A stretch of DNA of 34,092 nt from Eubacterium sp. (lineage in GTDB: Bacteria; Bacillota; Clostridia; Lachnospirales; Lachnospiraceae), in contig JAGAOE010000227.1 of the NCBI GenBank assembly GCA_017623885.1, positions 1-34,092 on the forward strand. The letters run 5' to 3'. How positions within the stretch are numbered: position 1 is the first letter of the stretch; each line of letters begins with the position of its first letter. This document shows positions 20,641 to 24,761 of the stretch, piece after piece. The translations under genes were made by a program, and so were the position numbers. Below the pieces are notes generated by a model. That model worked only from the letters and a program-made list of their open reading frames with translations, had not been told where the DNA came from and ran no database searches.

Positions 20641-21603
20641 CTATTTTTTCCGTGCTGTAATGTTTACCCATTCACCCTGATGGTTAATCTCTTCAATCGT
20701 CAATCCGACTGCCTCCAATGCCGCAGCTACTTCTTTTTCCTTGAAATCGATGATTCCGGATGTAATCAGGATACCGCCTGACTTCATGCGTGCCGGAAGG
20801 ACCGGTGCCATCGGAATAATGACATCCGCCAAAATGTTTGCCACTACCACATCGTACTCACCACCTACCGTCTCCTGCAACTGCACATCATCAATCAGAT
20901 TTCCGCAATAGAACGTTCCCTGCTCTCTGGTCAGATGATTCACTTCAAAGTTTTCATATGTGGATGTCAGACACGCATCATCTATATCGGTTCCGACTAC
21001 GCTTCCTGCACCCAGCTTTAATGCAACAATCGACAAAATACCGCTACCACAGCCGACATCCAGCACGCGGTCGCCGGCTTTCATATATTTGCGAATCTGG
21101 CGAATGCAAAGCTGTGTCGTTTCATGTTTTCCAGTTCCAAATGATACACCGGGATCTATCTCGATCATAACTTTTCCCTCGTCCTCCGGACGCAGTTCTT
21201 CCCATGTCGGTTTAATCAAAATATCTTCCAGATAGAACGAGCTGAAAAACTTTTTCCAATTATTCATCCAATCAATATCCTCAGTCTGTCCGGCAGTAAT
21301 CGTCGCAGCACCGATATCCGCATATTGCTTTTGTTCTTCCAATGCCAGCATCACACGCTCTAATAACGCCTCACGTTCTTCTGCTGTCGTCTCGTCCGCA
21401 TCCAGATAGAACGTCACGCGGCTCGTGCCGTCATCCTCACCCAATTCAGCCGGAAAGTCGATAAACATCTCACCGATCTCTTCTTTTGTGAGCGGAACAT
21501 TGTTTTCAATCATCGCACCCTCTATACCCAGTTCATCCAGCATGGCAACGATCAAATCTTCTGCAATCGTCGTCGTCTCTATCGTATAGCTATACCATTT
21601 CAT
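20641..21603 (-). CDS. prmA: Ribosomal protein L11 methyltransferase
   Basis: Trimethylates ribosomal protein L11. 320 aa: an N-terminal substrate-binding domain starting MKWYSYTIETTT, then a class I SAM fold with DPGVSFGTGKHETT, LDVGCGSGILSI, and VVANILADVI in motif IV. AAGGAAG precedes the ATG at 21603. It heads the prmA-rsmE-desulfurase-thiI operon and has a strong promoter of its own. In B. subtilis prmA follows dnaJ directly; here about 3 kb of other genes lie between. Confidence 0.95.
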   Translation of the reverse strand: MKWYSYTIETTTIAEDLIVAMLDELGIEGAMIENNVPLTKEEIGEMFIDFPAELGEDDGTSRVTFYLDADETTAEEREALLERVMLALEEQKQYADIGAATITAGQTEDIDWMNNWKKFFSSFYLEDILIKPTWEELRPEDEGKVMIEIDPGVSFGTGKHETTQLCIRQIRKYMKAGDRVLDVGCGSGILSIVALKLGAGSVVGTDIDDACLTSTYENFEVNHLTREQGTFYCGNLIDDVQLQETVGGEYDVVVANILADVIIPMAPVLPARMKSGGILITSGIIDFKEKEVAAALEAVGLTIEEINHQGEWVNITARKK

Positions 21604-21672: not shown

Positions 21673-21703
21673 AAAACCCCGGCTATTGACAAGCCGGGGT
21701 TTT
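21673..21703 (-). terminator. Strong terminator upstream of prmA
   Basis: A perfect 12-bp GC-rich stem (21673-21684 with 21692-21703, AAAACCCCGGCT/AGCCGGGGTTTT) and a 7-base loop, with five Ts on the minus strand. It ends transcripts coming from proC and element B. Confidence 0.88.
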
Positions 21704-21733: not shown

Positions 21734-21756
21734 CTGATTATTTTTCTATAAGCGAT

Positions 21757-21950
21757 TGTGAAACTCCTCGTTTACTTTGCTGCATAGTGCAACATTAACA
21801 ACGACCATAAGCAGATACTCTGAGTCCGTTGGTACTTAGGCGCTGTGTTTTAGCGCCTTATGTACCATTACGAGACGAGGGTAGCGCAAGCGTATCTGCG
21901 GTGGTTTGGTAATGTTGCACCGTTGCAGCATAAAAAATCGAAGTTTCTCA
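21757..21950. repeat. Structured intergenic element B (long imperfect palindrome)
   Basis: About 190 bases between the proC stop and the prmA-side terminator fold into one long stem. Pairs: 21779-21784 with 21924-21929 (GCTGCA), 21787-21797 with 21910-21920 (11 bp), 21811-21818 with 21892-21899 (GCAGATAC/GTATCTGC), and an apical hairpin of GGTAC/GTACC (21831-21835/21862-21866) and AGGCGCT/AGCGCCT (21838-21844/21852-21858). Weaker pairing continues outward between about 21757-21775 and 21930-21950. Read on the minus strand, its core begins CAGATACGC and ends CAGAGTAT, as in element A on the plus strand. No coding frame. It lies 3' of proC in the same sense as proC. Confidence 0.5.
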
Positions 21951-21954
21951 AATG

Positions 21955-22770
21955 TTATTTTTTTCCTAATTCACGAGACTTTTCTGCGCCCACATGAACC
22001 GCATCCATCACAGCAGCTCGCATGCCGCCTTTTTCCAACGCATAGCAGCCTTCGATGGTCGTTCCCGCCGGCGAAGTCACCATATCTTTCATCGCACCCG
22101 GATGCATACCGCTCTCCAGATACATCTGTGCGGTTCCCATCACCGTCTGTGCCGCCAGCTTGTAAGCTGTCGCACGCGGCAAGCCTTCCCGCACACCACC
22201 GTCTGCCATCGCCTCGATAAACATCGCTACATACGCCGGTCCGCTTCCGCTCACACCGCACACGGCATCAATCAGCGCTTCCGGCACCCATTCTACGATA
22301 CCGAGCGGTTGAAACAAAAGCTCTGCCTCTTTTTTCTCATCTTCCGTCAAATCACAATCGCTACACAGCGCAAACGCTCCGGAAAGTACCATCGCCGGTG
22401 TATTCGGCATCGTGCGAAGCACTCTGGGCTTTCCGTCAATCATCGCACGAATGCGCTCTGCGGACAGACCCGCTGCGATTGATATCACGCACTTATCGTC
22501 CAACGCACGCTTGGTCGTAGCAAGCGTCTCTTTCATATACTGCGGCTTGACCGCCAGAAAAATAATATCTGCTGCTTTGCACACCTGCTCGTTGTTTACC
22601 ATGACACGCACACCATACGCACGCATCGCTTCCTGTGCTTCTTCGCTGATGTCGTATACATAAATTTGCTCTTTCTGTGCAATTCCGCTCTGTACAATGC
22701 CTTTCAGAATCGCACCTCCCATATTTCCGCAACCGATAAATCCTATTCTCTTTGTTATTTTCTCACTCAT
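21955..22770 (-). CDS. proC: Pyrroline-5-carboxylate reductase
   Basis: Last step of proline synthesis: reduces pyrroline-5-carboxylate with NAD(P)H. 271 aa, normal length. The Rossmann motif is GFIGCGNMGGAI (9-20). The C-terminal helical domain has the family signature VCGVSGSGPAYVAMFIEAMA, then TAYKLAAQTVMGTAQ, and ends with the typical TSPAGTTIEGCYALEKGGMR. GAGGAG precedes the ATG by 8 bases. The other proline genes (proA, proB) are not in the window. It follows an XRE regulator by about 73 bases; whether the regulator acts on proC is not known. Confidence 0.95.
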   Translation of the reverse strand: MSEKITKRIGFIGCGNMGGAILKGIVQSGIAQKEQIYVYDISEEAQEAMRAYGVRVMVNNEQVCKAADIIFLAVKPQYMKETLATTKRALDDKCVISIAAGLSAERIRAMIDGKPRVLRTMPNTPAMVLSGAFALCSDCDLTEDEKKEAELLFQPLGIVEWVPEALIDAVCGVSGSGPAYVAMFIEAMADGGVREGLPRATAYKLAAQTVMGTAQMYLESGMHPGAMKDMVTSPAGTTIEGCYALEKGGMRAAVMDAVHVGAEKSRELGKK

Positions 22771-24048: not shown

Positions 24049-24582
24049 TTAAACCGCAAAATGGGTACGCAAGCGATCGTATTCTCTGTTAATCTCCTGC
24101 AAGGTCTCCGTATCGCCACAAATGTTATCCGGGTGATAAATCTTTATCAAATCCTTATAACGTTTCTTTAATGCAATCTCACTTTTCACACCGATAAAGA
24201 ATAATTCGCCCTTTATTGAAGTACGATGACTCTGGTGTGACGGCTCCTGTTTTTGATTAAACTGTCTCACACGATCATAAAACTCACGCTGTCGTTCCAG
24301 ATAGCTCTTCTCATTTGCCAGTTTTCGCAGTTCGTCCTCTAAGACTTTCTGCTTCATCACTAAAACATGTTCTTCCTGCGCCCGAAATCTAGCGTCTGCT
24401 TCCTTCTGTCTGTCGAAATCTTTACGTTCACGTTCCAGCTTCGCACGCTGCAATTCAAATTTTTTCTTCTCGTCTTCCAATACACGTCTGCCATGTTCTA
24501 TTTCTGCAGTTTTTTTATAAAACCAGCGCTGAAATGCTATCAATTCATCTTGTGTCTCAGGTACAACCATGGACATAGACAT
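24049..24582 (-). CDS. Coiled-coil protein with a C-terminal J-domain-like segment
   Basis: 177 aa from the ATG at 24582, which has AGGAG 9 bases upstream; the ATG at 24588 is only 3 bases from it. Residues about 15-110 are rich in Glu, Lys, Arg and Gln and look like one long coiled coil (EDEKKKFELQRAKLERERKD and similar). The last 55 residues resemble a J domain: LFFIGVKSEIALKKRYKDL, then IYHPDN with the HPD triad at 150-152, then LQEINREYDRL. Helix I is short. It sits next to dnaJ but has its own candidate promoter and lies beyond the dnaJ terminator. A DnaK co-chaperone with a specific target is plausible; I know no characterised homologue. Confidence 0.75.
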   Translation of the reverse strand: MSMSMVVPETQDELIAFQRWFYKKTAEIEHGRRVLEDEKKKFELQRAKLERERKDFDRQKEADARFRAQEEHVLVMKQKVLEDELRKLANEKSYLERQREFYDRVRQFNQKQEPSHQSHRTSIKGELFFIGVKSEIALKKRYKDLIKIYHPDNICGDTETLQEINREYDRLRTHFAV

Positions 24583-24628
24583 ATGCATTCGCTCCTTTGT
24601 ATAAATGAAAAAAAATCGCTTCCAATCA

Positions 24629-24658
24629 AGTATATCGTCAACCTTATAAAAAAATCAA
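24629..24658 (-). promoter_or_regulatory. Candidate promoter of the coiled-coil J-protein gene
   Basis: On the minus strand TTGATT (24658-24653), 18 bases, TATACT (24634-24629). The -35 overlaps the last bases of the dnaJ terminator stem. Confidence 0.4.
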
Positions 24659-24707
24659 GATATTGCGTAAAAAAAATAAAAATTTTTTCTTGACACAATA
24701 TCTTGAT
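24654..24707 (-). terminator. Terminator of the hrcA-dnaJ operon, with a large AT loop
   Basis: A perfect 12-bp inverted repeat ATCAAGATATTG/CAATATCTTGAT (24654-24665 with 24696-24707) encloses a 30-base A/T-rich loop and is followed on the minus strand by seven Ts. The loop is unusually long, so efficiency is uncertain. Confidence 0.6.
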
Positions 24708-24761
24708 ATGTTTTTTTGAAAACATATTCACGATAAGGAACTTATTTTGAATAATTATCCA

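Follow-up and report, generated by a model that had tools for sequence, protein, structure and literature searches.

Downstream of proC in a Eubacterium sp. genome lies a palindrome of about 190 bases, at positions 21757-21950 of the window (the whole 34,092-nucleotide stretch of contig JAGAOE010000227.1 that was analysed). The locus raises the question of whether so long a fold belongs to the 3' end of proC or reached this site by another route. The explanation that we regard as very probable is that the palindrome is a MITE moved in trans by an IS1182-like transposase, with targeting linked to Shine-Dalgarno (SD) motifs, and that its core is an independent folded module.

The fold and its setting after proC

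The predicted folding energy of 21757-21950 was -85.7 kcal/mol, compared with a mean of -51.2 (sd 4.2) in 200 dinucleotide-preserving shuffles (z = -8.24), none of which folded as well. This comparison had been proposed in a preliminary description of the DNA, and the native sequence clearly outperformed its controls. For the opposite strand of 21740-21962, z was -7.86 and again 0 of 200 shuffles were as good. The stems named in that description were all found in the sequence and in the predicted pairing: an 11-bp stem (21787-21797 with 21910-21920), an 8-bp stem GCAGATAC/GTATCTGC (21811-21818 with 21892-21899) and an apical plus-strand hairpin (21831-21866), in which a UU/UAU internal loop lies between a 5-bp stem GGTAC/GTACC (21831-21835 with 21862-21866) and a 7-bp stem AGGCGCT/AGCGCCT (21838-21844 with 21852-21858). 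The view of one folded unit, with structure beyond what a terminator needs, was borne out.

The neighbouring genes are both on the minus strand: proC (pyrroline-5-carboxylate reductase, 21955-22770; TIGR00112, 292 bits) and prmA (50S ribosomal protein L11 methyltransferase, 20641-21603; TIGR00406, 198 bits). The closest named records to this proC come from Lachnospiraceae. A terminator had been noted after the palindrome, and it is indeed there, in the direction of proC, as a separate minus-strand hairpin (21673-21703, arms 21673-21684 and 21692-21703), outside the element and conserved in the sister species G002. The element itself lacks the properties of an intrinsic terminator (a G+C-rich hairpin with a T run serving the adjacent gene), and no ORF of at least 60 aa was present inside 21749-21957. 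The window contained no tRNA or tmRNA and no Rfam match at the gathering score; the best permissive match in the element reached 14 bits (E 3.7). Two other structures were seen in the window, a strong terminator-like hairpin at 955-1010 (22-nt arms at 91%, A/T-rich feet) and an AT-rich inverted repeat at 24648-24713 (29-nt arms, 83% complementary) upstream of a minus-strand ORF (24049-24588).

When 36 full copies drawn from four genomes were aligned, the unit measured 209 bp (21749-21957), slightly longer than the ~190 bases first described. It was assigned to the plus strand, the one whose core shows a GNRA loop. The left terminal inverted repeat, TAAGCGATTGTGAAACTC (family form TAGRYRWTTGCGAAACTC), occupies 21749-21766 on the plus strand, and the right one, which reads TAACATTTGAGAAACTTC from the outside inward and is decayed, occupies 21940-21957 on the minus strand. 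Between them, the conserved folded core (21808-21905, plus strand) corresponds to a model of 98 positions and 32 pairs, R1, and includes a two-base-pair GC stem closed by a GNRA tetraloop (21884-21891, plus strand; GCAA at 21886-21889). The element is flanked by a candidate 11-bp target duplication, TTATTTTTCTA at 21738-21748 and TTTTTTTCCTA at 21958-21968, the latter covering the last proC codons on the minus strand. The two are T-rich and identical at 9 of 11 positions, a weak match that scored under the cut used for the wider set of elements described below.

The element sits between the proC stop codon and the proC terminator, and the TAA stop codon (21955-21957, minus strand) is the complement of its last three bases. 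The copy would have landed at this site in such a way that its own last bases now form the stop codon. The corresponding site is empty in G002, where proC is 87% identical and is followed by the same terminator with no element between them; proC and prmA are adjacent in G001, and G009 has no element after proC. It is thus highly improbable that the palindrome evolved at this site as an ordinary, if elaborate, terminator or 3' UTR hairpin for proC, a reading that would suit its location after proC with a hairpin terminator next, but one that as a complete explanation is ruled out by this empty site and by the dozens of copies elsewhere in the genome, most relatives moreover preceding genes.

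Dispersed copies, their ends and a likely parent

The preliminary description, which read the palindrome as a structure after proC, was right about the folded unit and the separate terminator and missed its dispersed, mobile nature; that emerged from the genome-wide search it had called for, which returned many full and partial copies. The genome of origin (G000) is a draft assembly (2.2 Mb, 227 contigs) with a completeness of 76%. Copies were recovered at many places in it with 21740-21960 as the query, and the 194-base palindrome gave 41 matches at E ≤ 0.001, counting partial and overlapping ones. When copies were aligned together with their flanks, an abrupt boundary was observed at the terminal repeats TAGRYRWTTGCGAAACTC. 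With at most one mismatch, this pattern had 73 matches in the same genome and was present in 8 of the 10 genomes of the genus, while the reversed control gave 0 in 10/10. The terminal repeats also occurred in viral contigs (10 loci).

Elements with paired ends measured 209-211 bp in the genome of origin and 203-205 bp in G001, G002 and G004, and there were also a 287-bp form in G001 and short forms of 50-120 bp. The 287-bp form (L193, L195, L199) is the 205-bp form with ~82 nt more in one arm. At four loci of the genome of origin (L021, L022, L024, L028), half of the core or arm was swapped for another repeated module starting AAATGCTGATTATATTCGCATTTCC, which gives these copies a modular look. 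One further copy (L011:1-500, G000:C142) lay between flanks that are almost exact inverted repeats of one another; a fold-back in the assembly may be the cause.

Target duplications scored at least 6 in 31 of 65 distinct paired elements, compared with 0.25% of 2000 mismatched flank pairings; their lengths centred on 10-12 bp (~11 bp), and they were clear in only about half of the paired elements. These counts exclude 23 solo ends, the nested pairs in L175 and L181, duplicates of one element and copies truncated at the end of a contig (for example L017, L021-L026, L029 and L030). An end pairing of 1437 bp in L175 was rejected as an element, as it looked like chance and had a coding region inside. 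The search for an autonomous copy through long paired repeats in the first loci gave a single far pair, which consisted of two MITEs. The elements have the attributes of MITEs: they are short and numerous, with terminal inverted repeats and target duplications, they carry no transposase gene, and they have ends in common with an autonomous element, an insertion sequence (IS) of 1745 bp found in G327, G097 and other genomes.

The exact terminal repeat was present in 46 of the 397 genomes sampled from the family. In the complete genome G327 it bounds the 1745-bp element, which has one ORF of 498 aa and is present in six copies; at one locus (L307), two IS copies form a tandem pair with one common target duplication, the second at the edge of the first. 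The 498-aa protein contains a DUF772 transposase domain (54 bits; cut-off 23.1) and scored 22.2 against DDE_Tnp_1, below the cut-off of 23. Its match to NF033551 (IS1182) had an E-value of 2.7e-23; the 82.6 bits fall short of the curated cut-off of 270, and by that model the protein is not an IS1182 member. No meaningful relative was found among solved structures.

A relative of the transposase was found in 5 of 15 selected genomes, including G366, which has both a full-length relative with these repeats and core MITEs with the same ends. In the 10 own-genus genomes no relative, and hence no autonomous partner, was found, an empty answer that by itself shows little; G000 is 76% complete. IS4-type transposases (PF01609), considered as a partner within the genus, occurred at 12 places in 5 of the 10 genomes, with no matching terminal-repeat pair at the loci. 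The IS1182-like transposase of other Lachnospiraceae would be the enzyme that moves the MITE in trans.

The likeness of this transposase to the IS1182 family rests on NF033551 and the DUF772 domain; the score below the NF033551 cut-off and the target duplications of 10-12 bp set it apart. We take IS1272 to be a member of the IS1182 family. In the accessible text on IS1272, this element replaces stem-loops and leaves no duplication, and IS1182 is named once (PMC5678879). The MITEs resemble REP/BIME sequences with RAYT transposases in being dispersed extragenic palindromes. They differ in having long terminal repeats, a DDE-type partner IS and target duplications, which the REP/RAYT type lacks and which are present here in nearly half of the paired elements (31/65). 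An association of structured RNA with a transposon also recalls IStrons, but at ~95 nt the core falls far below the size of a group I intron, and the Rfam search revealed no intron.

Position relative to Shine-Dalgarno motifs

An SD-like motif was located 14-21 nt outside at least one end in 56 of the 65 elements (beside both ends in 3), versus 12.9% of random positions in the same loci. Across the 130 flanks, SD-like 4-mers were concentrated 15-23 nt outside the element. The mean distance was 16.9 nt (sd 2.4) to the best AGGAGG match and 29.3 nt (sd 2.8) to the start codon, the latter for the 49 flanks in which the tested range contained a start codon. Because these spreads are so close, they do not by themselves separate the SD from the start codon as the reference point. 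The window copy has no SD at the usual distance and is one of the 9 exceptions among the 65; its place after proC is atypical, since the majority of its relatives lie immediately upstream of a ribosome-binding site. Among the 23 solo ends, which were counted separately, 10 had an SD beside the visible end. The same peak was seen among the elements listed for further genera, in G196, G706, G103, G342, G366, G179, G017, G121, G066 and others, though not in all.

The SD was at the usual distance in 33 of 38 full copies that bear the core and in 19 of 23 short derivatives that do not, and the targeting therefore goes with the ends rather than with the core. Elements that combine the core with other ends agree: in G186, where they end in AGGGGCTGTAAAAAA, the SD was present in 1 of 11, and the small samples from G673 (ends CTATACTTTATTGTT; 0/3) and from a second core family in G196 (ends TAGCCATGAG(C/A)AAAACG; 1/3) were similar. 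In the IS, 12 of the 15 visible transposase-5' ends had an SD-like motif at a distance of 14-21 nt; for the opposite end the count was 0 of 15. This count was taken from 16 copies, some decayed, in G327, G097, G037, G056, G016, G366 and G673; the three without the SD were one tandem copy, one with AAGG only and one with AGGTAGG. The SD-proximal and SD-distal repeats of the MITEs differ only slightly, unlike those of the IS.

These positions suggest that the transposase reads its target asymmetrically and would insert ~17 nt before an AGGAG-type (Shine-Dalgarno) sequence, which would place the MITE in a 5' leader, or else at the upstream edge of an operon junction, and spare coding sequence. 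The fixed distance could also reflect selection, with insertions elsewhere lost because they destroy the cell or the gene, and those in 5' leaders tolerated. Intergenic space is limited, short leaders would keep surviving insertions close to genes, and distances to the start codon vary hardly more than those to the SD. We consider selection an improbable source of the pattern: the peak is only a few nt wide, the G186 elements with other ends are not found there, and where the SD is present the IS faces it with the same end in all 12 cases. In addition, no start codon was present within the tested range for six SD-like motifs, although the limits of that range may account for some of these. If targeting by the transposase is the true cause, a transposon that takes the ribosome-binding site as its address would have a simple means of inserting safely, and potentially with regulatory effect, through a recognition rule that is directly testable.

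The conserved core

In alignment A1 (36 elements, four genomes), 16 of 44 predicted pairs had two-sided changes. The core model R1 was found at E ≤ 0.001 in 106 of 397 genomes of the family sample (94 of 334 genera), with at most 10 candidates scored per genome. In the order sample it was found in 51 of 392 genomes at E ≤ 1e-4, and in the class sample in 7 of 291; all the core-positive genomes listed belong to the same family, Lachnospiraceae. Seven richer genomes had 5 to 46 core matches each. Between deeply diverged copy pairs in G000, identity was 94.5% in the core and 63-67% in the arms.

For covariation, 77 core matches from 68 loci (35 genomes by our own count) were aligned to the core model, a fit that favours the covariation result. 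Over ~95 nt, 96.9% of cells were paired and 28 of 32 pairs had two-sided changes. The covariation score was 0.546, compared with 0.191 for shuffled alignments (0/500 as high) and at most 0.114 for slid ones. The loop at columns 114-117 was GNRA in 74 of 77 matches. Wobbles were G-T in 241 cells and A-C in 8 (70 versus 8 when pairs whose commonest type is a wobble were excluded), an asymmetry that points to the plus strand.

According to the accessible part of one study, template switching in DNA can maintain hairpins and yield compensatory changes in palindromes (PMC8794818). With this possibility, and with both strands folding well, covariation alone is no proof of RNA, and the pairing of the arms, which template switching could maintain at the DNA level, is weak evidence for it. 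Judged from sequence, the GNRA and wobble asymmetries appear to be the better evidence.

The core was found between unrelated terminal repeats, and may have become attached to transposon ends of several different kinds. We suggest that it is an independent module constrained as a single-stranded plus-strand structure, most likely RNA. Among 72 matches with ORFs on both sides, called crudely, no fixed orientation of the core to its neighbours was found: the plus strand was antisense to both ORFs in 31, sense to both in 20 and mixed in 13 and 8. In the genome of origin it was antisense to the downstream SD gene in 10 of 14 cases and sense in 4, the reverse of the bias in G001, G002 and G004, where it was sense in 15 of 17.

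Given this variable orientation, the core probably serves the element rather than the neighbouring gene. That it is a cis-acting regulator of that gene (a leader RNA, attenuator or mRNA stabiliser) kept for the host would be in keeping with its strong plus-strand conservation and with the sense bias in G001, G002 and G004; the reversed bias in the genome of origin and the mixed orientations over all 72 matches make such a role distinctly doubtful. A function as single-stranded DNA instead of RNA, for instance as a hairpin read by a transposase or nicking enzyme, is rather unlikely. The presence of the core inside several kinds of transposon ends and its free orientation to genes would both suit it, and small GC-closed loops are stable in DNA too. 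The variation within the GNRA loop and the frequent G-T pairs are what RNA would allow, and these favour the RNA reading.

The palindrome would then belong to a known type of element, unusual in its targeting, and would carry what seems an undescribed RNA-like module. More tentatively, the core may represent a new class of Lachnospiraceae mobile structured RNA that acts for transposons, in trans or in cis, perhaps as a binding partner of transposases or as protection for the transcripts of elements, and that several unrelated transposon systems have taken up, the IS1182-like family using the SD as its address to gene leaders. If so, mobile elements of a major gut bacterial group would have a new device made of RNA (or single-stranded DNA), a module that recurs with different transposon ends around it in roughly one in four of the Lachnospiraceae genomes sampled and that belongs to no Rfam family.

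MITEs with RNA structure are already known: BOX, RUP and SPRITE of Streptococcus pneumoniae, as described in the accessible text of PMC3049150, are interspersed, MITE-like repeats of small size, for which extensive RNA structure is predicted and some of which are co-transcribed. In the same text, 36 BOX copies supply the stop codon at the extreme 3' end of a gene, as the window copy does for proC. The elements described here differ in sequence and host and in having a single folded core common to a bacterial family and combined with different terminal repeats; a fixed insertion distance before the SD is not mentioned for BOX, RUP or SPRITE in that text. A literature search over titles and abstract openings, with subscription literature mostly outside it, returned nothing on the element, on SD targeting by an IS or on the core RNA, which is no proof of absence; as far as it shows, the SD-related targeting with its matching IS and the widely shared core are new.

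The surroundings of the core also varied. In G215 (L384-L386) and G298 (L359-L360, L259), the long arms beside it vary between copies, each being self-complementary. In G399 (L382), G378 (L383) and G696 (L325), cores occurred in close pairs or triplets at a locus, some of them oppositely oriented.
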